From Candidatus Methanoplasma reticulitermitis (GTDB lineage Archaea; Thermoplasmatota; Thermoplasmata; Methanomassiliicoccales; Methanomethylophilaceae): a stretch of DNA of 42,033 nt. The position numbers and the translations under genes were made by a program. This document shows, piece by piece, positions 15,901 through 42,033 of the stretch (its first letter is position 1; the number at the start of each line of letters is the position of its first letter). The stretch covers positions 1 to 42,033 of the forward strand of contig JAITTK010000105.1 in assembly GCA_031287135.1 (NCBI GenBank), read 5' to 3'. The notes under the pieces are model-generated. The model was given only the letters and a program-made list of their open reading frames with translations. It did no database searches and was not told the DNA's origin.

Positions 15901-16449
15901 GGGGACCTGACATTCCCGCTCGAGAACACGGTATCCATAACCGGGAAGTTACTGATATCCGCGGAAGGGAAACAGAAAAGGACGGTATCATACATCGATG
16001 AGAGAGGTATCGTGCCCACCGGAAACATAACCGCGGCGATCGACGACAAGATATACGTGGGCGACGGGTCCGGCTTCGACGATACGGACTTCGAGATCGG
16101 CGGCTGGCTGTTAAACGGTTCGGCTGATAACACATACGATCCCGGGGATGAGTACACGGTGGTGGGCAACACCTCATTCGTCGCGGTCTGGAATCAGAAA
16201 GTCTGGAATATCAAATACGAGTTCGATCCTTTCGCGGTATCGCTCGACGACGGATTCAACGGCGACCCTCCCGATAAGGTGCTGTCCGGAGAGGTATGCT
16301 ATTTCGTCATCAACCTGGATGTGCTTCATGATCTGGAAAATACACATGTGGCCGTCAGTGGAGTGAGTGCGGCACCGATGTTGACCGCGGACGCGACGAA
16401 CCCTCAGAGGATCCACGTGTACATATACGGTGTGTCATCGGACATATAG
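12952..16449 (+). CDS. Giant surface protein, N-terminal part up to in-frame TAG
   Basis: 1165 aa. A signal peptide is visible (about 13-35, 'VVVIVVLMMLAVPFTVM'), closely resembling that of the 3053-aa protein at 29092-38253. Next comes one Listeria-Bacteroides/InlB B-type repeat (about 45-122, ending 'RLYAVW'). A glycine-rich solenoid follows (about 160-710) in which 'GAGIGGGG' recurs about a dozen times every 30-50 residues between short beta strands, suggesting a right-handed beta helix. After it come beta-rich modules and a second 'FVAVW' repeat. The ORF ends at TAG without any membrane anchor, in the middle of a beta strand, and the same frame continues for 1633 codons. It is probably exported, surface-exposed and adhesin-like. 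Start: ATG 12952 with GGAG upstream. Confidence 0.85.
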   Translation: MKLDSDRGGRASALVVVIVVLMMLAVPFTVMSLGEGRQTEASDTYDVGYYSDGILFNTVSYGSEEDPEVKFDPIPQKDDSVFLGWSTDSAATGADYTVYGSRSFDPSNADRLYAVWGQIGIDAMFEMSVTDLVITYSNGIYSVNGSQLSGNYIKITGASATVENSGRIIVQSTAAAGSADQLYILMDGLGLTRPNNAGGVIDITPGCSVNLQYSGKNEFKLNVGGNAAATVTAVIRVSGDTTFVLQGQGKTSGDNGPGLHIDVRATRGHTAVSGIGGNGTISGTAENGGNIQIESGNLEIDLYCSSYSCMTGIGGGGSGDSGSVSGSGGNITINGGSTRISTSGTYTESTAIGGGATSRGIPGSSGNISINGGKISIIQESRTVMLSGSGIGGGGGYNQGAGGIVDSIVIKNSDISIIQNGDDIVTGAGIGGGGSYSASSPGIMGPITISDSNIVIKQIAQSYMVGAGIGGGGIYSRSSGSAGSAQVVIENSSVEIDQLSEYVCGAGIGGGGSYSGRGGSAEVSISDSEICINQVGYLASAGIGGGGVRSGSADAGNGTVTITGGIVEINRETDTGRWGFGAGIGGGGQGISGKAGSGTVTMNDATVHVTNKHGNNGGTYGLYGAGIGGGGTWNTQGAGEGTVVINGGDVRVSATSGNAKLRGAGIGGGGSNTSTGAYGDVTVTSGSVTVTMSSPNGMSGAGIGGGSNQNNAPTGDYMQTKVSINGGTVTVNRLEGTLYGQDIGTGGTLDNNSNIISATVNGGSIKVTGGEGGNNLYLGPSYPGSRPKNTPVSSTGPSEYVNKTVVGLAPGDVVISVLVRADGVNNLIGGRNYDLGYRYHDFGINAKHEADNDLYVYLPSNTANHNDVSVEVSDAGEVKWFRSDSSDARTNNAARMDATNTYYRVNYSLGNGLINREDIVHVKSGQADALIETLFVYDTYSYGGYVAPQNISLGMYDGSGYVGQSDYEYSTQWTGEGTSADREGDLTFPLENTVSITGKLLISAEGKQKRTVSYIDERGIVPTGNITAAIDDKIYVGDGSGFDDTDFEIGGWLLNGSADNTYDPGDEYTVVGNTSFVAVWNQKVWNIKYEFDPFAVSLDDGFNGDPPDKVLSGEVCYFVINLDVLHDLENTHVAVSGVSAAPMLTADATNPQRIHVYIYGVSSDI
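13770..15075 (+). repeat. GAGIGGGG solenoid repeats, first giant gene
   Basis: About twelve imperfect coding repeats of roughly 90-150 bases, each centred on 'gcgggcataggcggagga' or a variant (G-A-G-I-G-G-G-G). The glycine turns are nearly invariant at the DNA level whereas the intervening strands differ, as expected for solenoid turns under structural selection or gene conversion. Confidence 0.85.
16447..16449 (+). other. In-frame amber codon inside giant ORF
   Basis: The TAG separates 'YGVSSDI' from 'VFISVDPIEF' with no frame change: 12952 and 16462 are in the same frame and the frame stays open from 16450 to 21351. The strand motif spanning the TAG (S-S-D-I-x-V-F-I-S-V) has counterparts elsewhere in the downstream part, such as 'SGDVEVTIE' and 'SGTISIYV'. 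A single change from GAG would explain it, as would decoding as pyrrolysine if the host has that system, which is common in Methanomassiliicoccales. No downstream stem-loop was identified. Confidence 0.9.
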
Positions 16450-16461
16450 GTCTTCATATCC

Positions 16462-19400
16462 GTGGATCCGATAGAATTCACCATAATCCTGCCCGTTGAT
16501 GTGACCGGTCAATACGAGATAAATCTCCAGGAAAGGGTGCATATTGTGGAGAGCGGCGGCAGTCTGGTATTCGAGATAAATTCGATCGGGCCCGTCAGTA
16601 ATCTCAGCGTGAAGATTTCACGCAACGGAGGTCCGCTGGATGATGTGCGGTTGAAGCCAGACGGTGACTATAAGGCGACGTGTTCTCTTATCAACATCAC
16701 ATACAATGCCAGGATCGTCATATTCTTGGATCAGGTGACCCTGAGACTGCCGGAATCCGGCAACAATGCCGGATTCGTCACATATCCGTCAGGATTGAAG
16801 ACGATGGCTGCAGGATCGGATTTCCAATTCTGGATAATGGTTAACGAGAACTACGACCCTTCCACCCTCATCGTGAAATTCATCAACGACTACGTAGTGT
16901 CCTCGGAAACACTGCCGAATCCGGTCCCGGACCAACACGGCGTCTATGGCTACAGTGTAACGGTGCAGGACCATTCTTCGGTGGAGGTCGAAGTTCAGAA
17001 AATGAAGCACCGGTTCAAAGTCCAGGGCGGCATGGGATACAAGCTCTACAGCCCTCTCGATCCAACCTCGGAGGTCAATGAGATAGATCAGGTATACGAT
17101 CGCGGGACGATCCCGGCCTTTTTCATAAAAGTCGAGGACGGTTATGACATAAACGAATTCAATGTGCATACCACACCGTCGACGGCGAACAACGGGACCG
17201 TGACCCGCGGATCGAACAACCAGTACGGCTGGTACTACTATGTATCCGATTTCAGTGGCGATGTGGAGGTCACGATAGAGGCCGGCAAGCTGAGGCATAC
17301 GGTCGTGGTTCTGTCGGGGGACGGGTTCTCCACGGACCCGCTTCCGGGAGTGTACAGATACGAGGCGGATTCCAGGATCGATGTGACCGTCCATGCCCTC
17401 ATGGGCTATGACATAAACTCCGATGAGGTCTCGGTGAGATTGATATGGAGCGGCGGGGAGATAGACTTCGAAAGGGGAACGCAAACCGCGAACACCTTCA
17501 GTCTGGATGGGATAAACGGATCAGGGACCATATCGATATATGTCCCGAAGATGACCTATTCGATATCATATTCCCCCAACGGGGGCCGGGGAACGCTTCC
17601 GGACACGGCCATCGTGGAGTATCAGGGGTCGTACACCGTATCGTCCGCAGCGAGTCTCGTCAAATCGGGATACACGTTCGGCGGCTGGGCATCTTCGCAC
17701 GATGCATCATCCGCAGACATGAGCAATGTCCGTCTGGACAACATAAGCAGAAACTACATCCTGTATGCATACTGGGTACCGATCAAGATAACCATTACAT
17801 ACAATGTGAACGGCGGGACCGGCGAAGCACCCGTATCGACAGTTGTCGGCGTCGACTATTCCGACAGTACCAGTTTCGTTGCGGCCATGAGGCCGGCGGG
17901 GATGGTGTTCGGAGACTCGTCATTCAGCAACTGGAACACCAGTCCGTACGGTTCCGGGGAGATGTACGTGCCCGGCAGCACGTACAGTCTGCCGACAACC
18001 GAATACACGACGCTCTACGCCTGGTGGACGAACTTTGTCATATTCACGGGCAATGCGGAAGGCGCGTCGATCGTGCCGCCGATAATCGGTACCGTGGGCG
18101 ACAATGCGTTCAAATTCCCCGAGGGACCGACGCATCCGAAAGGATTCACATTCGTCGGTTGGTATGACCCCTCCGTTCCGAATGTGCTGTACGGGGCGGG
18201 CGATATACTCGAGATACCGAGTCAGAGCATCGCATACTATGCGGAGTGGAGATGGGTGGACGTGAACACCGACAACGTGGATGAGGGGATCTTCGATTTC
18301 GTCGGAGATGTCCAGATCCCGGAGAACGGATCGTATGATTTCGAACTCACCGTCAAAGACGGACACACGGGAACGTATGATGTCATGGTGACCAATGACG
18401 TCCTCGATTGGGGAAATCCCCTGATCCCCGTCACGATAACGGGTAACACGGCGAGTTTCTCCGTGGCTGACTCGGGCACCGGCACCCTGTATATCAAGAC
18501 CGAGTTCAAAACGACCGAAGTTACCGTGACGTTCGACCCCGGAAACGGGGTGGAAACCATAAACGGCAATTCATCCGGTTCCATATCCGTGGATTTCAAC
18601 GGTGATTTGCCGTTGACGTACGCATACGCCCCGGGATATGACGGCGCACCGGTCGAGCTCATATACTCGACCGACAACGGCATCAGCTGGACGGTCCTGA
18701 CGGGGAACACTATAAACAACATAACGGTCCCTCTGACAGTATCCTCGACCGACATATACACGGTTTCCGTCAGACAGACTATCGGCACAACGATCACGGG
18801 GGACGGTTTCGTGCTGAAAGGGTATGATTATGAATTCACCGTCACGGTCCAGGAAGGAAGACTCGCGACCGCAGGCTTCGGATACACTCCGCAGTCCTCG
18901 ACGGCTTTGTCCGCCGAGCCGGGGACTGCGGATAGGTTCGTCGTGAATGACGTCGGGGCAGGCAACTCGACCGGCGGATACACGCTGTATGTCGAATCGG
19001 GCATGATCGAAACATATGCCGTGGATTATTCGGGGGTCATATCCCTGGACCCGCTGTTCTTCATGGGAGCGGACTTCGTCAATTCCGGAAGCGATTACAC
19101 CTTCGTCGTCGGTCTGAAAACAGAGTACGAGGGCCTCGGAAGCACTTTCGCGGTCAAATACAGAATCGGCGTTTCGGGAACGGAAACCCCCGTGAACACT
19201 CCCGAGTACACAATAGAGGCGTCCCTGATCCACGATACGATCTATATCTGGGTCGAAGAGAACGATCTCTATCTGCCGGTTATCCTGGCAACCCCCGGCA
19301 ACGGAGTGGATGCCATTGCCGTCGATGCGATGGACGATGGCAGCGGAGGGTACAAAATAGCGTACGGGTCGACACTGACGATAACCGTCTCGATGTCGTC

Positions 19401-21351
19401 CGGATACGACGGGGCACCCGTCAGGGTGTCTTACAGGTACGACGGAGGGCCGGAGCAGTTCGTCAGAATGTCCGGGCAGTCCGTTGCTCTGGCCGGCATC
19501 CATGCGGGGATAACCATCTCGACCGTGGATATCTACAAAGCGGACAAGACGACGCATGTATCGCCGAGTGTGACGCTCAGCGGAGCGGACTTCGTCATCG
19601 CCGGGGACACTTACACGGTGAACGCGACATCAGGCCTTTCTGGCGTGAACCCGATTGTCGTATACGGGTTCAACGAAACCGATTGGATCCCGATGGTATT
19701 CGCCAACAACCAATATATGACGGAGGCAGTGTCCGGCACCGGATACACCCTGTTCATAAAAGCGGACCCGGGAGTAACGTATGCCATAGATACGACCGGC
19801 ATGGATGAGTATGAGGCACTCGTATTCTCCGGGAACAGCTACGTACCGGCCGGTTCCGATTACACGTTCACCGTTGTCCTGAATTCCCCCGGTTACACGG
19901 GGATGTTCGTGACGGAGTACTCTGCGGACGGAAAGATGACGTGGATCGAACTGATCCTGGACGGATCCGACAGCGGTGTCGTCACCGCGGCACAGATAGG
20001 GACGCCGGCAGACGGTACGCTGTACCTGAGGGCGGTCAACCACTCGTCGGACCCGCTGATGGTGCCGGTGACCCTGACACTCGGCAACGGTGTATCGGCG
20101 GTCAATGGATCGTACACCGTGCTGATGGTGCAGCACGGCACCTTGAATTATCAACTGACGGCGGAGATGTCTCCCGGATACACCGGGGCATCGGTCGTGT
20201 ATTCGTACACGGCGGACGGGGCGACGCACCCCGTCACCGGCGGCGGGATACCGTCCGTCGTCACTGCGATGACCCTCTACACGGTACCCATCTACAAGGT
20301 GTCCTACAGCTCTGTACGCGGCACTTCCCCATCGGCGGAATTCGTTATCGAGGGAGGATCGGTGACCACGGCGGCGATGTCCGATATCGGCACTCACCGT
20401 TTCTATGGTTGGAGCATAGACAGTTCCGCCCAGTATATCTCGTACGGAGCAGGGATAACGTATCCCGTGAGCGAGATGGCCCCGGGTTCATACGAGATAA
20501 CGCTCTATGCATTCTGGATCGATTCCTCCGGGACAGAGATATATTTGATCTATGTGTCGAACGGAGGGAGCGACAGCATACCGAGAGTGGGATACAGCGC
20601 GGGAGAATATGCTACTGTGACCTCGATAATACCGACAAGGTCCGGATACATCTTCACCGGATGGCTGGGCGAGGACAACAGAAGATACGCGGCGGGCAGC
20701 AGTATACTCATGAACGACACATTCGTGCTTATCGCCCAATGGTCCGAGGAGATCGTCAATCAGACGTTCACCATAACGTCCGCAGCCGATCCGGGTGCCG
20801 TGATATCGCCGGCGGGAAATGTCACGGTCGGCATATTCGGAAGCGTGACTTTCGAATTCTCGGCCAAGGAAGGATATTCACTGTCCGATATCATAATCGA
20901 CGGGGTGAGCTATCCGCAGTTCGCGTCCCTGGGACACTATACGTTCGAGAATGTGATCGGGGATCACACGATAGAGGTAAAGAACGTAAAAACGACGATC
21001 GTCCTGGACATAAGCATCGACGGAAACGGCAGGGTCGAATACAGTGTGAACGGCGGCGGTTTCGAGGAGTATTCGGAACCCGTCACAATGGCCGCGGACG
21101 TGAATGTGACACTGAGGGCATATGCAGGCAATGGACACCACTTCGTAAACTGGTCAGGCACGGCATCGGGCAGCGACTCCGAGATACAGATACTGAATGT
21201 GCGCGACTCGATACAGATGAATGCGGCATTCGAGGAGAACGGTCTCCTGTCCGGTATTTCAGGCATGTTCATGTGGTTGCTGTTGTTATTGCTGATTCTG
21301 CTGGTGATCGCAATGATCCTGATATACTCACGGGACCGTTCGACGCAGTGA
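16462..21351 (+). CDS. Giant surface protein, C-terminal part after TAG
   Basis: 1629 aa from GTG 16462, in the same frame as the preceding ORF. It has no signal peptide and only a weak AGGT upstream, so independent initiation would leave it in the cytoplasm. It is built of many beta-sandwich modules: an early set ending in 'V-E-V-E-V-x-K-M-K-H'-type strands, InlB B-repeats near residues 370-600 and 1355-1430 ('GYTFGGWAS', 'GYIFTGWLG'), modules starting 'TLGNGVSAVNGS' or 'TPGNGVDAI', and a final divergent InlB repeat ('GHHFVNWSGTASG'). One transmembrane helix follows (about 1598-1622, 'MFMWLLLLLLILLVIAMILIY') with a short charged tail. It is best read as the anchor half of one protein of about 2799 aa, or as the inactive remainder of a broken gene. 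Confidence 0.8.
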   Translation: MDPIEFTIILPVDVTGQYEINLQERVHIVESGGSLVFEINSIGPVSNLSVKISRNGGPLDDVRLKPDGDYKATCSLINITYNARIVIFLDQVTLRLPESGNNAGFVTYPSGLKTMAAGSDFQFWIMVNENYDPSTLIVKFINDYVVSSETLPNPVPDQHGVYGYSVTVQDHSSVEVEVQKMKHRFKVQGGMGYKLYSPLDPTSEVNEIDQVYDRGTIPAFFIKVEDGYDINEFNVHTTPSTANNGTVTRGSNNQYGWYYYVSDFSGDVEVTIEAGKLRHTVVVLSGDGFSTDPLPGVYRYEADSRIDVTVHALMGYDINSDEVSVRLIWSGGEIDFERGTQTANTFSLDGINGSGTISIYVPKMTYSISYSPNGGRGTLPDTAIVEYQGSYTVSSAASLVKSGYTFGGWASSHDASSADMSNVRLDNISRNYILYAYWVPIKITITYNVNGGTGEAPVSTVVGVDYSDSTSFVAAMRPAGMVFGDSSFSNWNTSPYGSGEMYVPGSTYSLPTTEYTTLYAWWTNFVIFTGNAEGASIVPPIIGTVGDNAFKFPEGPTHPKGFTFVGWYDPSVPNVLYGAGDILEIPSQSIAYYAEWRWVDVNTDNVDEGIFDFVGDVQIPENGSYDFELTVKDGHTGTYDVMVTNDVLDWGNPLIPVTITGNTASFSVADSGTGTLYIKTEFKTTEVTVTFDPGNGVETINGNSSGSISVDFNGDLPLTYAYAPGYDGAPVELIYSTDNGISWTVLTGNTINNITVPLTVSSTDIYTVSVRQTIGTTITGDGFVLKGYDYEFTVTVQEGRLATAGFGYTPQSSTALSAEPGTADRFVVNDVGAGNSTGGYTLYVESGMIETYAVDYSGVISLDPLFFMGADFVNSGSDYTFVVGLKTEYEGLGSTFAVKYRIGVSGTETPVNTPEYTIEASLIHDTIYIWVEENDLYLPVILATPGNGVDAIAVDAMDDGSGGYKIAYGSTLTITVSMSSGYDGAPVRVSYRYDGGPEQFVRMSGQSVALAGIHAGITISTVDIYKADKTTHVSPSVTLSGADFVIAGDTYTVNATSGLSGVNPIVVYGFNETDWIPMVFANNQYMTEAVSGTGYTLFIKADPGVTYAIDTTGMDEYEALVFSGNSYVPAGSDYTFTVVLNSPGYTGMFVTEYSADGKMTWIELILDGSDSGVVTAAQIGTPADGTLYLRAVNHSSDPLMVPVTLTLGNGVSAVNGSYTVLMVQHGTLNYQLTAEMSPGYTGASVVYSYTADGATHPVTGGGIPSVVTAMTLYTVPIYKVSYSSVRGTSPSAEFVIEGGSVTTAAMSDIGTHRFYGWSIDSSAQYISYGAGITYPVSEMAPGSYEITLYAFWIDSSGTEIYLIYVSNGGSDSIPRVGYSAGEYATVTSIIPTRSGYIFTGWLGEDNRRYAAGSSILMNDTFVLIAQWSEEIVNQTFTITSAADPGAVISPAGNVTVGIFGSVTFEFSAKEGYSLSDIIIDGVSYPQFASLGHYTFENVIGDHTIEVKNVKTTIVLDISIDGNGRVEYSVNGGGFEEYSEPVTMAADVNVTLRAYAGNGHHFVNWSGTASGSDSEIQILNVRDSIQMNAAFEENGLLSGISGMFMWLLLLLLILLVIAMILIYSRDRSTQ

Positions 21352-29091: not shown

Positions 29092-32000
29092 TCACTGCAC
29101 CCTGATCATCAGGGTGTCTGTGACATCATCTCCCGGAATCTCGTATACATCATCTTTCCGAACAGGCTCCTTCCACACCGTGTTGTCGCCCGTGCGGTAT
29201 GCGAGGGTTCCCTCTCCTTCCACGGAGAACATGTAAGGGCGGTTGGCCCGTGCCTTTTTCTTTCCGATGATGGTCGCGTTGTCGCTGTCTATCTTGACCA
29301 CGTCTACCATACCTCTGGAGAGCGAGGCCAGAAGTATCATGAGCAGTCCGATCAGCAGAATGGACAGCACGGCTATCATCAGGATTATGAACATGAGCGA
29401 TCCGAAGAAGTCGTCACTGCCGGGATTGACCGGAGCCGCCTTGAATACAAGGGTCTCGGTCACACTGCCTGTCACATCCATTATGGATACTCTGTCATCT
29501 GTGCCGTACACGCTGCCTTCCCATCTCTCGACGGCGTACCCGTCCGTCGGTACCGCCAGCAGGACTATGTCCGCCATCGGGGTCAGCTCCACGCGTCCGT
29601 TGTATCTCGTGAACGTCTGTCCGCCGTCCTGGCTGTACATAACATGTCCTTCGCCTCCGACGACGGTGACGTCGAGGTATATGCCGGTTTCGGCCGCGGT
29701 CACGACCATCGCATGGTTGGACATGACACTCAAGAAAGTGTAGCTGCCTGCCGCCACCAGGTCAGGGCGGCTGATTCCGTCTATCACCACGCCGACCACC
29801 TCGTATCCCGGTTCTGCGGTCCATGACACGGTGTGATTGCTTCCGGCAGGCACGGGCCTTGACCCGCTCGGGTCCACGGACACTCCCGGCCCGGCAGTCG
29901 CCGTGACGACATACCCGCTGGACGGGGGCGGCGAGAATTTGACCTCTATCATATGGTCCGCGTCAACGTTGAAGAACACGTAGTTATCCATAGGCCCGAT
30001 AGACACGTTGTCGACGATCACATCGATCACGTGGGAACCCGTACCCGGGGTGATCACGAACGTCTGATCATGGTGTTTCTCGATGAAGACCGACCCTGCC
30101 GGGGATACCCATCCGTTCCCGGAGATGATCGTCGTTATGGTGTATCCATCGACATGGAACTCCGCCGTGACGAAGCTCGGAACCGTGCCTACATCGAAGG
30201 TCTCGGGGTTGTTCATTCCAGTTACCGCGCCCGTCCATCCCACGAAGTCTCCCTGCGTATTCACCGCAAAGATCGTAAGATGGTATCCGTTCGGCACGGT
30301 CAGCTGGCTGGAGGGGAAGTTGTGCCACACCCCTTCATGATCGAACTGTATGTATCCGGTTCCGTTCCCGATGGTCGACGCGGTCACCGAAGTGACGCTG
30401 CCGTTCAGATAGAACCATGCTGTGATGCTCTTCTTCCCGTCGATCAGGAGGTTCTGTTGCGCAACTATGTCCGAAAGATCACCGGTCCACCATACGAAAG
30501 AACTGCCCGATGCAGCCAACGCCCTGACCATGAGATCGCCGTTCGGCACATTCACCGCCGAATACGGCAGATCATGCCAGACGCCGTCCCTCTGCACGGA
30601 GACGGTTCCGTCGCCGTCGCCATCCATGTCGACATCCAGCGTCGATATCTTCGAATTATCGAAGAACCAGGCTTTGATGCTCTTGTTCCCGTTTACGTTC
30701 AGGCTCTCGCTGGCGTTGAGTGTCGTGAGGTCCCCGGTCCACCATATGAAGGTGCTGCCGGATCCGGACGTCGCGACTATGTCATACACGACTTTGGGGA
30801 GCCTTGTCACAGTTCCGTAGCTGAATTCCATGAGCGTTCCGCCAAACTCGTATTCCACCTTGCCATTCCCTTCCCTCGTTACGGTGACGTTCGCGAAATC
30901 CGAGCTGGAATAGAACCAGACTATGGCATCCTCGCCACCGTCGATCGCAAGGTCCTTCGGGTTATCGGTGCCTGTGAGGTCACCGGTCCATGCGAAGAAC
31001 GTTCCGGACGATGCCGCAGCCCGGAATGTAAGATTGCCCTTGGGCACATTCACCGCACCGTACGGGAGGACGTGCCAAGCCCCGTCCCTCTGCACGGAGA
31101 CGGTCCCGTCCCCGGTCCCGTCCTTCTGCACAGTGAGCTGAGCTATGTCGCCGTCGGCGAAGAACCAGGCTTTGATGCTCTTGTTCCCGTTTACGTTCAG
31201 GCTCTCATTGGCATTTAGTGTTGTGAGGTCCCCGGTCCACCATATGAATGAGTTGCCGGATGATGCCGTGGCGGTTATGCTGAGATTGCCTCTCGGTATC
31301 TCCGTAGCAGTCCCGTAGACGAACTCGTACGTCGAACCGTCGAATACATACTCGACCTTGCCGTTTCCGTCCCTTTCGACCGTGATGAATACCAGATCGC
31401 CCCCGTTGTAGAACCAGGCTTTGACTGTTTTGTCACTGTCGATGGTCACCGTCTCGCCTGCGTTAAACGAGGTGAGGTCCCCCGTCCACCTGTAGAACAC
31501 ACCCGTGACGGCAACGGCCCGGATGTTCAGGACGTGGTTCTCCGGAATCCACTTCCCGCCGGACGGAACGTCGTACCAGACCCCACCGTACTGATACTGG
31601 GCCTTTCCTGACCCGGTTCCTCCGTACTCGGCGTTTAACATGTATGCCGTGTCGGGCGATCCCCCCGGACCGTCGTTGAACTCGAACACGGCGGATGCGG
31701 TGACGTTGTGGTTCACGGTTATCGTCGCTGTTGCCGACACGGCACTGCTGAACGATACGAGGTCCCCCGATGTCCCCGCCCACCAGATGAACAGGTAGCC
31801 TGCGGTGCCGTTGGAGGTCTTGACCTCCACCTGCTGGCCCGCGGGTACGGTCATACCGCCGGCCGGGAACACAGTCCAGACATTGCCGCTGTTCCAGTCC
31901 ATGTACTCCACCGTCCCTCCGTTCGTGGCGGAGAGGTTAAGGGTGTATGTGCTGCTCTGGGTGAATTCTGCATTCACTGTTTTGTCAGTATCGACCGTTA

Positions 32001-35000
32001 GTGTCTCGGGATTGGTCTGTCCGGAAAGGGCCCCGGTCCAGCGAATGAATTCACCAGTTGTGGCCACTGCCGTCAGCGACAGTACACATCCGTTAGGGAC
32101 CGTTATCGGTCCAGCCGGGAAATCCTGCCAGACCGAGTTCTGATAGAACTGTACCTTGCCTGAGCCGTTGCCGGACGCGGTCGTCGTCACGGCATATGTG
32201 CTATCAGAGAACAGAGCTGCGACCGTTTTATCGTCGTCCGCCGTCAGAGATTGAGGATTGACATGGCCGCTGAGGTCCCCGGACCACCAGATGAACACAT
32301 TGCCTACCGGGAGTACGGACGGTATCGCTTCCAGCGACATGACCGAGTTCGTGGCGATGTTCACGGGCGTTCCGGGGTATAGGAAGGTGGTGCCGTTCAC
32401 GGTTATGTCAACGGTACCGCTGCCTGTGACGGAAACCGTGAGGGTCTTTCCCCTGTCGGATCCGGTGTAGTTGGCCGAGACGGTCTTGTCGGAATCCACC
32501 GTCAAGGCCGGGGCCGGGTTGGCCGCGCTCGAGATGCCGCCGGACCAGTATGAGAATCTGGCTCCCGTCGGGGATGCCGAAGACTCCAGGATGACGGACG
32601 TACCCGTGGCAATATATATCGGATTCAGATAATCGAATGTTATCGCACCCACCGTCAGAGTGACGGAGCCTCCGTTATCGTTCACCGTCAGGATTTTCCC
32701 GTGACCCAGGTCCGTGAACACGGCCTTCTCCGTGTGATCCCGCCCGAAACTGCCGATCGTCAGCGGATTGGCCGAGCTGTTCACGGTTCCTTCCCAATAC
32801 GAGAAGTTGGAGCCCGCTTTGCTAGCGGTCAGCACGACCTGCGACCCGTTCGGGACATTGACAGGCAGGGTTCCGTAATCGAATGCGGGTATCGTCCCCA
32901 CTCCGACGTTGACGTTCCCGCCGTTCTTGTCCACGGTCAGTATGCGCACGTCCGCCGTGGCGTGGAACCAGGCCGTGATCGACTTGTCCGAATAGACGCC
33001 CAGGGTGTGCTGGGGCCCGTTGCCGATAAGGTCGCCGGACCATGCCACGAACGAACTGCCGGGATCAGGGACCGCCTTCACATCCAGGTCCGAATCTCTC
33101 TGTACGGTCAGCGTCCCGCCTGAAGGGAATGCCTGCCAGATGCTGTTCTGGTAGAACTGGACCGTACCGCTGCCCGACACCGCCGAGGTGACCGTGTATG
33201 TTCCGGATGCGGTGAACTCCGCGTCCACCGTCTTGTCGGATATGATGTTTGCAAGCGTCTCCGGGTTGGTCTGACCGGAGAGACTGCCGGTCCACCAGAT
33301 GAATGCGTCCGACGGCGATTTCGGAACGGCTATGAACTCCACGTCCTTTCCGGCCGCTATCGGTATTACCGCTCTGTTGGACGAGGGGGCGCCCGTGCGG
33401 AAGACTGCTCCGTCTATCAGTACGTCTATGTCCCCCGATCCGTCGCCGAGCGTCCCGAGACTGAGGTACACCGCCCCGCTGAGCGGGACGAACCATGCGT
33501 TGACCGTGTAGTCCGGAGATATGCCAGTATGAACTGTCACGCCTTCTTTGTCCAGGCCGGATGCCGCTCCGGTCCATCTCGAGAAGACGTATGAACCCGG
33601 TGCGGCGACGAGCCGTACGGTGGCCGAGTCGCCGGCCGCCGTGACTATATCGGCGGCCATGCCGGCGAAGGGTCTCCCGTTTATCTTATATTCATAGGAA
33701 GCGCCGGGGACCGTGCCGCCGGTGGAGTCATCGTAGGACTTCACGTAGACGGTGACCGAGTTCGCGGTCAAGACGAACACCGCGGTCAGATCATGCGATT
33801 CCGAAGGGAGCGAACCGATCCATGCCGCGGTGCTGTTCCCGTTCACCAGTCCCATCCACGTGGAGAAACTGTGTGTGGAGGGGATCCCGCTGTGGACCTC
33901 CATGCTGACCGAGGTCCCGGAGGGGAGGATGAGCATGCCCGTCGCATAACCCACCTCGCTTCCGATGGTATACTTGAACACCGCACCGGGGATCCCGCTG
34001 TAATTGGTCCCGTCCCATTCGTCCGTCTGAAGGTTGACGACGGTCTCCGCGTTGTGCGGAACGAATATCGCTTTGATATGCACCGTTTGTGACAGGACGC
34101 TAACGTTCAGAGTGATGGTCCCGCTGTTGGTGTTCCCGATGTTCTGATCGTCGGTCACCCATCTGGAGAATGAATAGCCTCCGGAAGGAAGGGTTGTTAT
34201 GGTTATGTTCCTGTTCGGCGGCATTGCGTCGGATTCTCCGTGGGCAACCCTGTATGTGTTCCCGTCATAGCTGTATTGTATCACCTCTCCGAGCATCGGT
34301 TTTTCGGACCCGCCTTCGATATATACAGCGTCGAATTCCACCGTGAGCCACTGGCTGCTGCTGTAATAGTATGCGGTGAGGACCGGAGCCGTATTGACCC
34401 CTATCGGCATGACCACGGTATCCGTTGTGGGACCGCCCAGTATCTCGGATCCATTCCAATGGTCGAAAATGAAGCCGCTGGGGGAATCGCAATGCGTGAA
34501 CCCTACGTCATATGTCGTCGACGATCGCGGGAGGTGGAGCGTGGAATTCATGGAAGTCCACGCTTTCCCTTCGCCCGGGATCTCATAGTATATGTTCGAA
34601 GGCACGTGCACGCCGGGAGATGTCGCCATCCTTGCGCTCAGGGCAAGGGAGACGTAATCCCCGTTGGCAAGGAAATGCGCCACGGACTCTTTGTCAGTGT
34701 CCATGACCGTGCCTGTCACGGTAGGCTCGCCTGACCCGGTGACCCCGGGCCCTTTCAGGTCATAATCCGTGGTCCATCTGGAAAAGACATAACCGCTCTC
34801 CGCGTTCGCGGTGTAATCCACGTACGTCGTCGGATCCGTCCATATGATGCCGGTGCCGCTGACGAGGGATACGGGGCCGTACCCGCTGTACGTGCTGCCT
34901 CCGTCGGTGCTCACGCGGAACTCGAAGGTTCCGGCGGCAGCCGGGTCCGAAACGATGGTCAGGCCCACACCCGCACCCGTCGTGAAGACAGCTTTGACAT

Positions 35001-38000
35001 AGGTGTTATCCAACGTAGCGTTGAACCCGAGCGGGTTGAACGTGCTGACGGTGTCCCCGTCCCAGTCCCCCTGCCAATACGAGAATTTATTGTTTGTCCC
35101 CGTCGCCGCCGCGGTAAGTGCCAGAGTTGTGTTCTTATCGAAAAGCAGCACTTGGTCGGAAGAGAACTCGGGACTGATGTTCACCCTTTCCGAGGCGGAA
35201 TAGACGGCCGACACGGCGGTCTTCCCGGCCCCGGCGAACGACAGATGCAGCCTCACGGCGTCGCTGGAGACGTATGCTTTGTATTCGGTGTTATGATTCA
35301 GCACTATGTCCGTGATTGTATCTGAGATGTAGCCTCTGGTTCCGTCGGACCAATGCAGGAACTGATATCCCGAGGTCGCGGTTATCTTCACCCCGACCTT
35401 CTTCCCCAGGTCCACCATGACCCTTCCCCCGTAGTCCGTCCACGGTCCGTTCTCGATATTGTACTGCAGATCTCCTCCGCCGGAGTCATTGATGTCCAGC
35501 TCCAGAACGGCGCCCCACAGGGCCGTCAGCGTCTCTGACGTCTCCCTCAGAACCAACGGGTCCTCCAGGAAATACCTCTTTCCTTGCGAGTCCTGCCATC
35601 CTATAAGCTGATAATCCTGGAATACCGTGCTCCACCCCCATGAGGCGGTGGGCTCGTTCAGATTGACTAGGTATCCTATACCTGCATGCAGCGTCTTCAC
35701 GGAGTTGTTGTGGCCGGACACCGGGTCGTGGAAACTCAAGGTGGCGGTCTCGGACGACCCGACGGCGATCACGAGCTTACCCGTCACAGGCGCCGTCATG
35801 GAGAACGGCGAGGTGCGGCGTGTACTGTCCCAGTCGGGGTTGTCAGGGTCGTAGGCCGGGACCAGTGCATATGTGTACGGCTTGTTCTCGGACAGCGGAT
35901 ACCATGTGTCCGTAGTGCCGTTGCTCTTGTACATGTACAGATATCTCAAGGTGCCCTGCAGGGTGTGCGAGGAGTCACTCGTGAATTCCTGCGAGAAGAA
36001 GGAGGCCGAATCGCTGTAGTGCACTATGTCGTGCGTGCGGTCAATCCCCTGTGCGAGTTTGTAGATGATACGGTAGTACCTGCTGTATCCTCCGCTGACC
36101 GTGGTCCCGTTCGGGATCGCTGGGTCGTTGCCTCTGACCGCGGTTACAGTACCGCTGTTGCCGGACGATGTGTAATAATTCACGAATCCCGTCTTTCCGT
36201 CAGTTTCGACCGATATCCCGTTCGGATCTGACGCCTGGGCCGCCGGAAGATACAGGTAGAGCTTGGTATCCTTCGCTGCCGCGCCGAGTTTGTGAGAGGA
36301 TGTTATGCCGAAATCCGAATAATACGGGGAACCGTTCTTCAGCCAGCCAGAGGCGGCGGCCCTCTTCACGAACACCGAGGCCGAATCGCCGGTATCGGGC
36401 ACCGTGGTCTTGTACAGTGCGTTGCCCTTGGAGTCCTTGGGTGACGACAGGGTTCCTCCGTCACTTCCGGTGAGCCTTATCGATCCTCCGTCCACGGTTG
36501 CGGAGTTGGTAATGTTTCCGCCTCCGCCTATGTCCTGGCCGGCGGACCCGGCCCTGTTGACCGTCACGGTACCGCCTGTTACTGTCACGGTACCGGCCGC
36601 GCCTTTGTTGCTGTTCGCCGAATGTCCGTACCCGCCTCCGCCTATACCGGCGCCGGTGAACTGATCGCCAGAGCGAGCGGTCATGTCGACGTATACGTTG
36701 CCGCCCGAGATCGTGACTTGGCCTGTGTTCGGATTCGAACTGCCGCTCTCGCCGGATCCGCCTCCGCCTATACCGGCACCGCTGCTCTTTCCGTTGTTGG
36801 TGTTGCTATGCTTCTTGGAGACCGAGACGTCACCGCCGGTTATGGTCACAACTCCTTCGCCTGCAGTCCCGTTACCTTCGATACCGCCTCCGCCTATACC
36901 CGCACCGTATATGCCCAGAAGGTATCCCCGGCTGATATCGCCCATCTGTATCTTCACGGTCCCGCCGTTTATCGCGACGTTCCCGTCCCCGCCGTTACTG
37001 CCATTGTATGATCCTCCTCCGCCGATCCCGCTGGCGGGCGTTCTGTCCGTGGTTATGACCGAGATATCGACAATCCCGCCGTCGATCGTTACGTTGCCTT
37101 TCCCCCCCCTACCATCCCACGAACCGCCGCCGCCCATACCGGACCCGGTAATCTCCTCGTTATCTGCGGTGTTTGAAGAGAGGTTGATGTTTATGTTCCC
37201 GCCTTTGATGAAGACATTCCCATCCCCGGCGGTCCCGTTCCTGCTCGCCCCGCCGCCTATCCCCGAGGAATTCACATACTGCCCGGCAATCGTTATTGTC
37301 GTCGTCCCTCCGTACATGTATACTCCTTTGGCATCCCCGGCGTAGCCGAAGGTCGACCCGCCTCCGCCTATCCCGGAATAACATGTGCCGCCGCCGACCG
37401 AACTTCTCATACTGATCGTCAGTACTCCGGACTCGACCTGTATGTTTCCCGCATCAAGGCCGTTATTCTTGCCCGGTGCTCCACCGTCGTTTCCATTCCC
37501 GCCGATCCCGGCACCTCCGGAATGGTCAGCCGTGGAGGTTTTCTGAATCGTCAGAGCAGAATTTCCCTGCCCCTGAAGTATGAGGGACGCTCCCCCGGAC
37601 ACATGGATAACAGCATTGTGATTGGAGTTTTCAATGAAATCGTTGCTACCGGCATACTGCATAACGACATTGCCGTTCCTTATATCGAAAACCGACCCGT
37701 TCGACGAATTGTTCGCACGGAGGTCCTGAACGAGGACATGCACCTTTCCGGAACCAACATCGATCTGAATCCTGTTGTTGTTCCCTCCGCCCTCTATTAA
37801 AATGTACTTTCCGGCGTCTCCGCTTCCGATGCTTGTCGTTGAAATGGAGCTTTGGTTACTCAGAGTTATTTTTCTATCATACTGCTTCCAGCATGCATAC
37901 AGCGTCAGGGACGCCGAGTCAACGGTCAGAGTCCTGCTGTCCCAATTGCCGATCTCGGATTCAAAATCCGGGGTATTTCCAGAAGTTAACGACCAGCCGG

Positions 38001-38253
38001 TGAAGAAATAGCCGGCGCGCTGAGGTATGTTCTCGAACTGAACCGTATATTCCTCATGCAGCCCGCGACTGTAGGACGGCTGGGCTCCCGGCCATGTTCC
38101 GCCGTTTGCATCGTAGATTATGTTTCCACTCGGTTCGGCGGAGGAATATTCTCCGCCGAAGTTGATCGCAGTAAATGGAACCGCTATCATAAGCAATATA
38201 GCTATAGCTACAAATGCTGATTTGCGCCCATCGTCCTCTAATCTAATATTCAT
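29092..38253 (-). CDS. Giant surface protein with beta-helix and InlB-type repeats
   Basis: 3053 aa. The signal peptide (about 11-32) shares 'GR-[KA]-SA' and 'M-x-AVPFT' with the giant ORF at 12952. A Listeria-Bacteroides repeat follows ('IIYDANGGTWPG', 'GYFFTGWSL', 'LTLYACW'), then a glycine-rich solenoid with nine or so 'G-x-GIGGGG' turns (about 245-590). The remaining about 2000 residues are some twenty divergent InlB repeats of 70-85 aa with a 'F-x-x-W-T/S-G-D-L' core and 'DKTVxAxF' end. One transmembrane helix lies near 2945-2970 ('LMFIILMIAVLSILLIGLLMILLASL'). Unlike the first giant, an 80-residue cytoplasmic tail follows ('VVKIDSDNATIIGKKKARA'). Probably an anchored adhesin. ATG 38253 with GGTGAT upstream. 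Confidence 0.9.
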   Translation of the reverse strand: MNIRLEDDGRKSAFVAIAILLMIAVPFTAINFGGEYSSAEPSGNIIYDANGGTWPGAQPSYSRGLHEEYTVQFENIPQRAGYFFTGWSLTSGNTPDFESEIGNWDSRTLTVDSASLTLYACWKQYDRKITLSNQSSISTTSIGSGDAGKYILIEGGGNNNRIQIDVGSGKVHVLVQDLRANNSSNGSVFDIRNGNVVMQYAGSNDFIENSNHNAVIHVSGGASLILQGQGNSALTIQKTSTADHSGGAGIGGNGNDGGAPGKNNGLDAGNIQVESGVLTISMRSSVGGGTCYSGIGGGGSTFGYAGDAKGVYMYGGTTTITIAGQYVNSSGIGGGASRNGTAGDGNVFIKGGNININLSSNTADNEEITGSGMGGGGSWDGRGGKGNVTIDGGIVDISVITTDRTPASGIGGGGSYNGSNGGDGNVAINGGTVKIQMGDISRGYLLGIYGAGIGGGGIEGNGTAGEGVVTITGGDVSVSKKHSNTNNGKSSGAGIGGGGSGESGSSNPNTGQVTISGGNVYVDMTARSGDQFTGAGIGGGGYGHSANSNKGAAGTVTVTGGTVTVNRAGSAGQDIGGGGNITNSATVDGGSIRLTGSDGGTLSSPKDSKGNALYKTTVPDTGDSASVFVKRAAASGWLKNGSPYYSDFGITSSHKLGAAAKDTKLYLYLPAAQASDPNGISVETDGKTGFVNYYTSSGNSGTVTAVRGNDPAIPNGTTVSGGYSRYYRIIYKLAQGIDRTHDIVHYSDSASFFSQEFTSDSSHTLQGTLRYLYMYKSNGTTDTWYPLSENKPYTYALVPAYDPDNPDWDSTRRTSPFSMTAPVTGKLVIAVGSSETATLSFHDPVSGHNNSVKTLHAGIGYLVNLNEPTASWGWSTVFQDYQLIGWQDSQGKRYFLEDPLVLRETSETLTALWGAVLELDINDSGGGDLQYNIENGPWTDYGGRVMVDLGKKVGVKITATSGYQFLHWSDGTRGYISDTITDIVLNHNTEYKAYVSSDAVRLHLSFAGAGKTAVSAVYSASERVNISPEFSSDQVLLFDKNTTLALTAAATGTNNKFSYWQGDWDGDTVSTFNPLGFNATLDNTYVKAVFTTGAGVGLTIVSDPAAAGTFEFRVSTDGGSTYSGYGPVSLVSGTGIIWTDPTTYVDYTANAESGYVFSRWTTDYDLKGPGVTGSGEPTVTGTVMDTDKESVAHFLANGDYVSLALSARMATSPGVHVPSNIYYEIPGEGKAWTSMNSTLHLPRSSTTYDVGFTHCDSPSGFIFDHWNGSEILGGPTTDTVVMPIGVNTAPVLTAYYYSSSQWLTVEFDAVYIEGGSEKPMLGEVIQYSYDGNTYRVAHGESDAMPPNRNITITTLPSGGYSFSRWVTDDQNIGNTNSGTITLNVSVLSQTVHIKAIFVPHNAETVVNLQTDEWDGTNYSGIPGAVFKYTIGSEVGYATGMLILPSGTSVSMEVHSGIPSTHSFSTWMGLVNGNSTAAWIGSLPSESHDLTAVFVLTANSVTVYVKSYDDSTGGTVPGASYEYKINGRPFAGMAADIVTAAGDSATVRLVAAPGSYVFSRWTGAASGLDKEGVTVHTGISPDYTVNAWFVPLSGAVYLSLGTLGDGSGDIDVLIDGAVFRTGAPSSNRAVIPIAAGKDVEFIAVPKSPSDAFIWWTGSLSGQTNPETLANIISDKTVDAEFTASGTYTVTSAVSGSGTVQFYQNSIWQAFPSGGTLTVQRDSDLDVKAVPDPGSSFVAWSGDLIGNGPQHTLGVYSDKSITAWFHATADVRILTVDKNGGNVNVGVGTIPAFDYGTLPVNVPNGSQVVLTASKAGSNFSYWEGTVNSSANPLTIGSFGRDHTEKAVFTDLGHGKILTVNDNGGSVTLTVGAITFDYLNPIYIATGTSVILESSASPTGARFSYWSGGISSAANPAPALTVDSDKTVSANYTGSDRGKTLTVSVTGSGTVDITVNGTTFLYPGTPVNIATNSVMSLEAIPSVLPVGNVFIWWSGDLSGHVNPQSLTADDDKTVAALFSDSTYAVTTTASGNGSGKVQFYQNSVWQDFPAGPITVPNGCVLSLTAVATTGEFIRWTGALSGQTNPETLTVDTDKTVNAEFTQSSTYTLNLSATNGGTVEYMDWNSGNVWTVFPAGGMTVPAGQQVEVKTSNGTAGYLFIWWAGTSGDLVSFSSAVSATATITVNHNVTASAVFEFNDGPGGSPDTAYMLNAEYGGTGSGKAQYQYGGVWYDVPSGGKWIPENHVLNIRAVAVTGVFYRWTGDLTSFNAGETVTIDSDKTVKAWFYNGGDLVFITVERDGNGKVEYVFDGSTYEFVYGTATEIPRGNLSITATASSGNSFIWWTGDLTTLNANESLNVNGNKSIKAWFFADGDIAQLTVQKDGTGDGTVSVQRDGAWHVLPYGAVNVPKGNLTFRAAASSGTFFAWTGDLTGTDNPKDLAIDGGEDAIVWFYSSSDFANVTVTREGNGKVEYEFGGTLMEFSYGTVTRLPKVVYDIVATSGSGSTFIWWTGDLTTLNASESLNVNGNKSIKAWFFDNSKISTLDVDMDGDGDGTVSVQRDGVWHDLPYSAVNVPNGDLMVRALAASGSSFVWWTGDLSDIVAQQNLLIDGKKSITAWFYLNGSVTSVTASTIGNGTGYIQFDHEGVWHNFPSSQLTVPNGYHLTIFAVNTQGDFVGWTGAVTGMNNPETFDVGTVPSFVTAEFHVDGYTITTIISGNGWVSPAGSVFIEKHHDQTFVITPGTGSHVIDVIVDNVSIGPMDNYVFFNVDADHMIEVKFSPPPSSGYVVTATAGPGVSVDPSGSRPVPAGSNHTVSWTAEPGYEVVGVVIDGISRPDLVAAGSYTFLSVMSNHAMVVTAAETGIYLDVTVVGGEGHVMYSQDGGQTFTRYNGRVELTPMADIVLLAVPTDGYAVERWEGSVYGTDDRVSIMDVTGSVTETLVFKAAPVNPGSDDFFGSLMFIILMIAVLSILLIGLLMILLASLSRGMVDVVKIDSDNATIIGKKKARANRPYMFSVEGEGTLAYRTGDNTVWKEPVRKDDVYEIPGDDVTDTLMIRVQ
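30544..31540 (-). repeat. Two 498-bp in-frame repeat units within giant gene
   Basis: The segment starting 'gaagaaccaggctttgatgc' occurs at 30661 and 31159, exactly 498 bases (166 codons) apart, with 48 identical bases and only five mismatches in 90. 'ccgtccctctgcacggagac' recurs at 30584 and 31082 with the same spacing. Each unit holds two InlB-like modules. This is a recent in-frame duplication or conversion. Outer limits are approximate. Confidence 0.85.
36505..37515 (-). repeat. GIGGGG solenoid repeats, second giant gene
   Basis: About nine coding repeats seen on the plus strand as 'cctccgcctat' variants, each encoding G-[AS]-G-I-G-G-G-G at the turn. It is the same architecture as 13770-15075 but with fewer turns and different strands. 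Confidence 0.85.
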
Positions 38254-38716: not shown

Positions 38717-40468
38717 TCATTGAAGTTCTTTTTTCAATTGTTCGAGAATCAGACGTTCACGTGCTTCCAGAAAATTCGGAAAGTTCTCGAATGAGATATC
38801 GACATCGGTCGGCATCAGATGACGTTGGCGATAGGCATCTCTCTCTCTCTTCTGATCCCCGGAGATCGGTTTCAAACCACTCCTTGAAATCTTTATCGCT
38901 TTTCTCAATATTCGGGATACCTTCCAAAAGTTGCAGATTGCCAATGCGGTCTCGTTTATCGATAAACTCTGCATCGTGCTCGTCCGATATGCCTTTGGAG
39001 CGTAAATGATTCTTAGTAAACCTGCTTCGCGGGAACATATGATCAACGTGGAATTTGTTGCGCATATCCGCCCACGGACAGATAACGGACAATATGACCA
39101 AGGTATCGCGGTCACCGTATTCTTTCCACAGAAGATTATTAAAATCATCTTCCGTGAACAGCAGCGTACGGTTCGTTCTTTTGAAATGCTCAGTGATCTT
39201 TTCAGCCGGGAATCCCTCCGCACCACACTGCCCGATGATGTCTCGAATAGGCTTCAGAAAACCGTCCGGCTCCAAACTGAAAACCTTTTTTAATAACGAG
39301 GATACAAACCATTTTTTGATGGCCCTCCTGTCTGCGGCTGTTGCTGCCGAGGTGTCAAAATTATTCGGTAAACCGATGGTTTTCAAATAATAGGCGATCG
39401 GGATAAACAAGTTGTTTGACGTGATGTTCTCCCGACTGAATCCGAATCCGCTGACAAGCGCGACCGCGCCGCGAATCGCTTTCATGATGTTATCCCATTC
39501 GGATTCGATCTTCAGCATATTTGTTCGATCAAAATTGTCCACCTTGAACCTGATGTCCCGCATATCGCAGAGGACGAGGCAGGCCTTCAGGATAATATCT
39601 CTGTTGATGTTGAACCCGTGCCCGATTCCGTTGATCTCGTCAACGAATCCCGTTATCTCTTCCCGCGCATCCCGATGTTCCCATTGTGCAGTTGCGAAAG
39701 AGAGCAGGAGGTCTGAATGGGAAAGGGTTGTTCCGCCGCTATTCAATCTGATGAAGATGTTCAGAACCTTGTCCAACTCGGTGTTCTGCTCCAAATAATA
39801 GCTGATGCTCCGATTGACGTGAATGACCTTGTGTAAACGGAACAACGTCTTGCTTGCCAGACTGCCCCTTTCCTTGTCCGGGTTTTGCATGATCCCGGCA
39901 TCTGAGAGGTAATCATTAACTTCGTATTGCTCCCTGAGATCAAGAATATCGCCTACACGAAACCAATGATGATCGTCATCCGCTTCCTTTGCATCACCTT
40001 CGGTCAAAAAAGCGAAATCGTATTCCGGATCTTCGCCGTCTGACTTTGACAGAAGATTCAGATAGAGTCGCTTTTTTGGGAATGCGCTCGAATCATTCCA
40101 CCGTCTGTGTGGTATCTTTGAAGCATAAGAACCTTTGAGCGCAATGTAGAGCGAGGTGAGCCGTTGTTGACCATCCAGAACAGCCATGACACCATTGTTG
40201 CCGCCGATATCTGCAGGCGGATTGTGACGTTGGTTTTTTTCGTGAAAATCGCGAATGAACTCATAGAATTTGAACTCGGACATTTTTTCTTTCGGCACCT
40301 TCCAAAAGAGAAATGAGTTAATCGGATAGTCGCGCATCAGGCTGTCGAACAGTCCGATTATCTGTTTCTGACTCCACACGAACTCGCGCTGTATCGACGG
40401 CAACAGATAGTTTTAGCGTGAATATCGTTGATTATCTCCACAATCGTTAAAGGTGTTTGGAAAGCCAT
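38717..40468 (-). pseudogene. DUF262/DUF1524 (GmrSD-like) gene with two frameshifts
   Basis: The main frame (40403-38757) has DUF262 features: 'LPSIQREFVW', 'VLDGQQRLTSLYIAL' with the D-G-Q-Q-R motif near residue 80, and 'FIRLNSGGTTLSHSDLLLS'. Near residue 452 comes the HNH-type DUF1524 motif 'HVDHMFPRSRF'. The natural start is ATG 40468 after a GGAGGAGT site and reads MAFQTPLTIVEIINDIHAK; one A missing from the A run at 40412-40415 breaks it from 'YLLPSIQREF'. Near 38842-38853 a GA repeat shifts the frame again: the true end, 'RDAYRQRHLMPTDVDISFENF' to 'LEQLKKELQ', continues to a TGA at 38717. One added A and one added GA would restore about 583 codons. Type IV restriction-like nuclease, disrupted or phase-variable. 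Confidence 0.85.
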
Positions 40469-40492
40469 TTTCGGTACTCCTCCGTAATTTCA

Positions 40493-41140
40493 TTACCCCC
40501 CAACCGGGTTTTGTACCAGTAACTCGGAAACGAGAACAAGGTCTTCCTCACTCAATGGAGTTTTATACAATCCCCTCACCTGCCACAAACCACTATCCCT
40601 TATTTCCTCTACGGGGCTATGCAAACCAAGCCACTCTGCCGACGGATGGCACTTATTGCAACTTGAAACCGTTCCGATCATTCGTACTTTAAAATATAAT
40701 CTATCTTCCTTCGCAGGTATGTTGAATAAACAAAAACTAAAGTTGCTTTGTATGTAGGATGATATTTGCTTCTCAATTTCAGCTTCGAGTTCAGAATTGA
40801 TGCGATCCGCGTAAAGTTCCTTATTCGCTCTTGCCGTGGTGTCCAACTCCCATGTTGCCAGGTATGGGTTTTCGTTTCGATTCAAAATACATCTTCCTAT
40901 GTTCTTGCGAAAGATGCTTCTGTTTTTGTTTTCTTCAAAGTGCTGATGAATCCTATTTCCAAGCTGCTTGTCACCGGTATTTGTTCCGATGAGCACTATC
41001 CTATCACCTTCATGCGCCGTCTCTCCCTTTTCAAACATGATATAAATGCCGTTGTCGGGGATCGATTTATAGCCCATACCAAAATCAAAGCGTTTGCCGC
41101 TCCGCATGAGTGTATGTAATTGCGCACACAGATCGGGCAT
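40493..41140 (-). CDS. GIY-YIG-like nuclease-fold protein
   Basis: 215 aa. The N-terminal part has the order of elements expected in a GIY-YIG domain: 'NGIYIMF' (30-36), then 'RIVLIGT' (47-53, in place of YIG) and 'LGNRIHQHF' (60-68) with the conserved arginine position. The C-terminal half is charged and helical, including 'KCHPSAEWLGLHSP', and is not recognised. It overlaps the stop of the DUF6884-like gene by one base (TAATG) and ends 24 bases before the DUF262 start, so all three form one operon. It may cut or bind nucleic acid in a defence role. The assignment is by motif only. Confidence 0.65.
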   Translation of the reverse strand: MPDLCAQLHTLMRSGKRFDFGMGYKSIPDNGIYIMFEKGETAHEGDRIVLIGTNTGDKQLGNRIHQHFEENKNRSIFRKNIGRCILNRNENPYLATWELDTTARANKELYADRINSELEAEIEKQISSYIQSNFSFCLFNIPAKEDRLYFKVRMIGTVSSCNKCHPSAEWLGLHSPVEEIRDSGLWQVRGLYKTPLSEEDLVLVSELLVQNPVGG

Positions 41141-41547
41141 TAGGCATTCTCCTTATAGAATGCCAATTGTTCACCGATTCGCATCCCCAAAAGCGGCACG
41201 TCGACATGTTGAAGATGCCCAACGAGATACTTCCTATATTTTTCGCCAGCCAAGAACACGAATTCATCATTTTGCAAATCTGTCTTTTCCGCAAGCGAAA
41301 CGAGAACCCCGTCCGCCCACTTTTTGACTTCGGCCGCAGTTTTATTGTTAAGCGTTTCGTTATACGGCTCAATACTGTCGTATTCCTCGAGTAGTCCGTA
41401 CTTTGCAGAGAGGATAAACACCCTATCCGCATTTAGTTTTTTAGCGTACCTGTACGCACCTCTGAAAAGCTGACTGATGTACATATCTTTCGCAGTCGAA
41501 GGAACGTCACGCTTTTTAGCTACGCATGAAATAAGAACGATTCGCAT
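41140..41547 (-). CDS. DUF6884-like protein, first gene of island operon
   Basis: 135 aa from ATG 41547. The track start at 41754 adds 69 residues of low-quality sequence with no domain, and 'MRIVLISCVAKKRD' is the family-like beginning. Other recognisable parts are 'DMYISQLFRGAYRYAKKL', 'VFILSAKYGLL' and 'PYNETL'. This layout (I-S-C-x-x-K-K, then S-A-K-Y-G-L-L) recalls DUF6884 and the related DUF5591/YaaA-like folds, which occur in nucleotide- and base-modification settings. The enzymatic activity is unknown. Joined by a one-base overlap to the GIY-YIG-like gene, it is probably part of a mobile defence or modification unit. Confidence 0.7.
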   Translation of the reverse strand: MRIVLISCVAKKRDVPSTAKDMYISQLFRGAYRYAKKLNADRVFILSAKYGLLEEYDSIEPYNETLNNKTAAEVKKWADGVLVSLAEKTDLQNDEFVFLAGEKYRKYLVGHLQHVDVPLLGMRIGEQLAFYKENA

Positions 41548-41704
41548 ACCATCACATCTTGTCGATGAAGTAAGCATTTGTCTAATATATGTATATATTT
41601 GAAGCACAAGTTTCCTTTTGTCTCGGCGGAAAAACAAACGCGAACACCTCCGCGATGATAAACACCCGGGTCGGGTTCGCATCCGTTCGGTATGGCGGGC
41701 CTGA

Positions 41705-41896: not shown

Positions 41897-42033
41897 TTAT
41901 GCGAATCGCGGATTCAAACCAGATTCTTGGCCAGAGCCGATGTATTTCTTGGTCTCGTCCACGGACTCATGACCGTACAACTCGGACAGTGTGTTACGAT
42001 AAGAGGAAACAATGGTGGAACAAGAAAGTCGAC
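41897..42033 (-). CDS. Tyrosine recombinase C-terminus, cut by window edge
   Basis: Only the last about 45 codons are in the window (TAA at 41897-41899). They read 'YRNTLSELYGHESVDETKKYIG', where G-H followed nine residues later by Y matches the 'LGHSSISTTQ-Y' end of the tyrosine recombinase catalytic domain: the second conserved His and the nucleophilic Tyr. About 15 residues after the active site complete the protein. The remainder lies outside, so it cannot be said whether the gene is intact. Its presence supports the view that 38.3-42 kb belongs to an integrated element. Confidence 0.55.
   Translation of the reverse strand, partial: RLSCSTIVSSYRNTLSELYGHESVDETKKYIGSGQESGLNPRFA

Follow-up and report, generated by a model that had tools for sequence, protein, structure and literature searches.

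We find that the locus analyzed here consists of a conserved two-gene module, A–B, and an unrelated type IV restriction gene, C. A and B form a conserved partnership that is often translationally coupled and sometimes fused, a conclusion strongly supported by comparison across genomes. We give roughly even chances to a reading in which their products form a two-component DNA nuclease used in restriction, with A reading a base, B cutting, and C acting separately. The original prediction had the two small genes process DNA as part of a compact three-gene defense cassette; a DNA-processing, defense-type role for the pair is plausible, whereas the three-gene cassette fails on co-occurrence.

Locus layout and state of the window copy

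The window, 42,033 nucleotides long, is an entire contig of a 1.22 Mb genome (118 contigs, 85% complete). Gene A (41140..41547, minus strand) encodes a 135 aa DUF6884 protein of the YaaA-like ‘cantaloupe’ superfamily (PDC-M57A), gene B (40493..41140, minus strand) encodes a 215 aa protein (PDC-M57B) predicted to be a GIY-YIG-like nuclease, and gene C (38717..40468, minus strand) is a BrxU/HEC-05-type GmrSD (DUF262 + DUF1524) type IV restriction gene with two frameshifts. The sequence confirms the tight minus-strand coupling that had been described: the stop codon of A and the start codon of B overlap within TAATG (41138..41142, minus strand), with the single base 41140 common to both genes, and 24 bases separate the stop codon of B (40493–40495) from the ATG of C (40466–40468). 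This gap contains the ribosome-binding-site-like GGAGGAGT (40476..40483, minus strand) ahead of C.

Two further elements of the original description, AT-richer DNA and a neighboring tyrosine recombinase end, also stand. The GC content of the A–B–C region is 43–47%, compared with 51–60% in the remaining window. At 41900..42031 (minus strand), a 44 aa fragment cut by the contig end is probably the C-terminus of a tyrosine recombinase; it found no match in a Pfam search but is 59% identical over 22 aa to an open reading frame of a related genome (G189), which shows the HTLRR...GH...Y motifs of a tyrosine recombinase. Directly upstream of A, an AT-rich stretch (41568–41611) shares 89% identity with another site of the same genome (G000:C57:23647-23688), also upstream of a gene. 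We rejected this 44-base match as an attachment site; it resembles a shared AT-rich promoter, and the repeat is possibly a shared promoter element or an insertion trace.

The reading frame of C is broken twice. In the first frameshift, an A run at 40411–40414 is one base short, and in the second the frame changes at a (TC)6 tract (38838–38849), with the longest intact piece spanning 38757–40403. Two homologues (L142 and L143) read unbroken through both sites, and the N- and C-terminal reading is found in the other frames of C. The frameshifted gene therefore probably yields no functional product here. In B, three residues depart from positions that are otherwise nearly invariant among 97 sequences: L50, N54, and K151 replace R (94/97), H (91/97), and E (94/97), respectively. 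Apart from L060, a misaligned fusion whose deviations in B were ignored, the members in which such changes are equally or more numerous are fused or distant. Because C is broken and B carries three unusual residues, the window copy looks decayed, and the locus may be decaying in this genome. The adjacent 3053-codon gene contains no frameshift. Poor assembly throughout is therefore disfavored, although quality could be lower at the contig end.

We note two features of the remaining window. The gene that adjoins the island (29092-38253, minus strand) encodes a 3053 aa protein, either secreted or in the membrane, whose InlB B-repeats are divergent (Flg_new_2, 5.8e-29). A long surface-type protein (12952-21351, plus strand) is interrupted by a single in-frame TAG at 16447-16449, after which the same frame resumes; the source genome encodes mcrA and a pyrrolysyl-tRNA synthetase, and in view of the latter this codon may be read as pyrrolysine. 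Together, the two genes make a methanogen of the Methanomassiliicoccales the most likely source.

Separation of C and conservation of the A–B pair

Gene C was originally read as a DUF262/DUF1524 nuclease. The assignment to the GmrSD type holds, while the double break in its frame had gone unmentioned: Pfam returns GmrSD_N at 3.1e-30 and GmrSD_C at 1.6e-4, just under the cut-off, and C matches PADLOC HEC-05 at 9.5e-208 and, along almost its full length, the BrxU structure 7p9k at 1.5e-126. HEC-05 has been equated with BrxU (PMC11411939), an enzyme that cuts DNA with modified cytosines (PMC12409352) and acts alone (PMC11411939; PMC12409352). Gene C shares with BrxU/HEC-05 the DUF262 and DUF1524 regions in one protein; it differs in its two frameshifts and in its position beside A and B, since BrxU/HEC-05 is a single-gene system unlinked to them.

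In the window, the tight spacing and the ribosome-binding site before C would suit a single defense system of A, B, and C with the GmrSD/BrxU enzyme as a third effector. The co-occurrence that such a system implies was not found, as C-like genes are present in 0/102 B loci examined and neither A nor B lies beside any of four BrxU-like genes examined. Among plasmids, C-like genes occur on 410, whereas B-like genes occur on only 7, all haloarchaeal, and BrxU, as noted, functions by itself. Given the absence of C at B loci and of A and B at C loci, we reject the three-gene system as exceedingly improbable. C is a type IV restriction gene in its own right: it lies in the same island as A–B but is not part of their system. 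The original prediction could not match the cassette to a named system; its parts correspond to the catalogued PDC-M57A/B and HEC-05 (= BrxU).

The partnership of A and B, by contrast with that of either gene and C, recurs widely. An alignment-based scan of bacterial and archaeal genomes returned 267 relatives of B, of which 80 were retrieved, and the locus set also includes loci from a phylum search, plasmids, and viral contigs; scanning genome contigs with the B protein alone had returned no relatives. In 70 of 95 distinct B loci, drawn from many bacterial and archaeal phyla, A is adjacent or fused: canonical A lies directly upstream of B in 61, directly downstream in one, and is fused in eight (seven in A–B order and one in B–A order). 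The A–B fusions read cleanly through both domains, and where the genes are separate they most often overlap by 4 or 8 bases.

In nine further loci that lack canonical A and are not counted among the 70, the adjacent or fused partner of B is YaaA, DpdC-like, or a divergent DUF6884 protein. Ten other partners were run against Pfam; that of L049 had previously been counted as adjacent, which leaves nine. The partner matches YaaA (PF03883) above the Pfam cut-off in L021, L026, L027, L056, and L072, matches DUF6884 or YaaA at weaker scores in L020, L091, and the fused L023, and is a DpdC match in L019 (3.3e-36). Several of the YaaA- or DpdC-type partners are missed by the PDC-M57A model. These nine loci with other YaaA-superfamily partners suggest that the kind of partner is conserved despite the change of family. 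In roughly twelve B loci, no partner of the YaaA superfamily is seen.

Pairwise distances of A and B are correlated (r=0.55, against a maximum of 0.28 in 1000 permutations), and the two closest relatives of window A, L033 and L034 from Bacillota MAGs, are also those of window B. The distribution of AB is patchy (13/390 genomes of the phylum), and DNA resembling the Haemophilus AB pair is absent from E. coli genomes.

Variations on the arrangement were also observed. In two Bacteroidetes loci with a YaaA-like partner, the gene directly downstream of B encodes another GIY-YIG protein, this one classical (L056:8640-9506 and L072:1896-2762), which suggests a three-gene variant. L022 and L023 carry a YaaA-superfamily domain fused at the C-terminus of B, together with a nameless extra N-terminal domain of ~110-130 aa. 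One genome holds two copies, ~13 kb apart, of a distant A–B pair (L024 and L025; G168:C1, 644.8 kb and 657.9 kb) with repeated surroundings and identical match scores.

Predicted activities of A and B

The DUF6884 assignment of A, made in the original prediction, is secure by Pfam (PF21818, 3e-44, 150.9 bits against a cut-off of 30), and A matches PDC-M57A at 4.1e-53 over residues 2–134. It carries the CxxxK motif at C8/K12 and LSAxxG at 46–51, and it retains all residues with 90% or higher conservation among 63 sequences. Similarity to YaaA and DpdC is weak (DpdC via PADLOC, 5.9e-06). A is thus a full-length member of the DUF6884/YaaA/DpdC superfamily with both motifs, but one tied to a nuclease-like partner, whereas YaaA is a stress protein and DpdC a DNA base-modification enzyme. 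Many phage records encode DUF6884 proteins; no phage record encodes B. A YaaA-like ‘cantaloupe’ fold with a probable DNA-binding cleft has been described for DUF6884, and the CxxxK and LSAxxG motifs are named there (PMC11701544). Sequence searches of the PDB with A and B profiles returned chance matches only.

Gene B matches PADLOC PDC-M57B at 8.8e-85 over residues 1–206; run alone against Pfam, it has no significant match, the best GIY-YIG hit (E 0.25) being below thresholds. Its motifs comprise G31-x-Y33, xIG at 50–52, R63, H67, and E123, and the GIY residues (G31/Y33), R63, H67, and E123 are kept in 94–95 of 97 sequences. In the AlphaFold2 model of B (pLDDT 91.3), GIY and xIG lie on a beta-hairpin; R63 sits on the helix that follows, another helix comes next, and E123 is on a later helix that precedes a strand. 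This is the order of a GIY-YIG domain. With GIY-YIG nucleases (the UvrC N-terminus, YhbQ, and GIY-YIG restriction enzymes), B therefore shares the positions of GIY, R, and E and the strand and helix order. It differs from them in its sub-threshold Pfam score, in R-I/V-G in place of YIG (94/97 sequences, with L-I-G in window B), and in the additional SIFRKNxG and WLG motifs, which are also nearly invariant among the 97 sequences.

In a profile comparison by hhalign, B aligned with a mixed GIY-YIG profile built from other genomes at P=5e-5, and the motifs fell in register; an unrelated family gave 0.02, and a smaller GIY-YIG reference set gave only 0.04. Foldseek found no significant match of the B model in the PDB or in viral libraries, with GIY-YIG proteins among its weak viral matches. 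The A–B fusion model (AF2, pLDDT 92.9, pTM 0.72), which does not fix the relative placement of the domains, also lacked a significant Foldseek match in the PDB, with no recognizable YaaA among the matches. The structure searches thus speak neither for nor against the fold assignments. From its motifs, model topology, and profile comparison, we regard B as a probable divergent GIY-YIG domain, consistent with its original naming, and assign it a nuclease activity with moderate confidence.

Defense context and proposed mechanism

PADLOC lists A and B as the phage defense candidate PDC-M57. The window genes match both models, are adjacent, and agree in A–B order; they differ from the catalogued candidate in the three replaced residues of window B, and in related loci the partner of B is of the YaaA or DpdC type. 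We found no paper on PDC-M57 and no published experiments on A, B, or the pair. Type I restriction-modification subunits flank AB in 6 loci, and in Methanosarcina (L035) AB is inserted between hsdS and hsdR. Such subunits account for 7/128 immediate AB neighbors and for 0/128 genes in random regions of AB-carrying genomes. Most AB pairs are surrounded by ordinary genes with no clear defense island, and the raw PADLOC tallies are noisy in both the neighbor and the random sets; consequently, we consider the association with defense present but modest.

The conserved partnership suggests a common site of action for A and B on a single substrate. We propose that A would bind DNA and read or flip out a specific base that is modified, damaged, or abnormal in some other way, and that B, as a GIY-YIG-like nuclease held by A, would cut the DNA at the base that A reads. 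The most likely use of such a nuclease would be the restriction of foreign DNA. The cutting by B, the supply of the target by A, and the defensive purpose are each inferred here. A base-reading A with a cutting B is the simplest model because YaaA relatives bind DNA lesions or act on a DNA base and because B is nuclease-like. Restriction glycosylases, which make abasic sites for later cleavage (PMC10273834), offer a conceptual parallel only.

The same features could also describe a housekeeping repair pair with no part in defense: A would locate a damaged base or abasic site, and B would nick the DNA next to it. In fact, the mostly ordinary neighbors of AB fit such a role, and YaaA is a stress-linked DNA-binding protein. 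Similarly, the DUF6884 protein YfjM is reported to be one of the proteins that bind abasic and RNA-base lesions (PMC11701544). A housekeeping function accords poorly, however, with occurrence in only 13 of the 390 phylum genomes and with nearest relatives (L033/L034, Bacillota) from another domain of life, and both the insertion beside type I genes and the PADLOC listing look like accessory defense. We therefore regard DNA repair as a rather unlikely explanation.

Alternatively, A might modify bases in the manner of DpdC while B restricts unmodified (or modified) DNA, which would make the pair a miniature modification-restriction system. The distant similarity of A to DpdC and the DpdC match beside B in L019 point in this direction. 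DpdC itself acts on a 7-deazaguanine base in DNA, converting dPreQ0 into dADG (PMC12839542). However, A (135 aa) spans only part of DpdC, and clustering of the AB neighbors revealed no recurring base-insertion family of the DpdA/DpdB type, without which the modifier would have no substrate. This renders the modification-restriction reading improbable. Even less probable is an abortive-infection pair acting on RNA or tRNA: toxin-antitoxin systems often take the form of compact, overlapping gene pairs, but fusions in both orders are ill-suited to a toxin and its antitoxin, and the known DUF6884/YaaA relatives act on DNA.

Returning to the base-reading nuclease, the parts of the locus are already catalogued (PDC-M57 and HEC-05/BrxU), and the window locus is partly broken. 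What we did not find recorded is a constant nuclease that occurs with differing YaaA-superfamily partners, several of them outside the PDC-M57A model. A–B is widespread in bacteria and archaea, yet no published function was found for it. The fusions and the exchange of YaaA-type partners provide a testable idea, namely that DUF6884/YaaA proteins direct a nuclease to an abnormal base; if true, modification- or lesion-dependent restriction would gain a further, compact type. More tentatively, the constant GIY-YIG-like nuclease and its interchangeable DNA readers (DUF6884, YaaA, DpdC-like, and divergent DUF6884) might constitute a family of base-guided restriction systems. The choice of reader would then determine the modified or damaged base at which cutting is triggered, and the YaaA superfamily would gain a general role as modules for the recognition of flipped bases.
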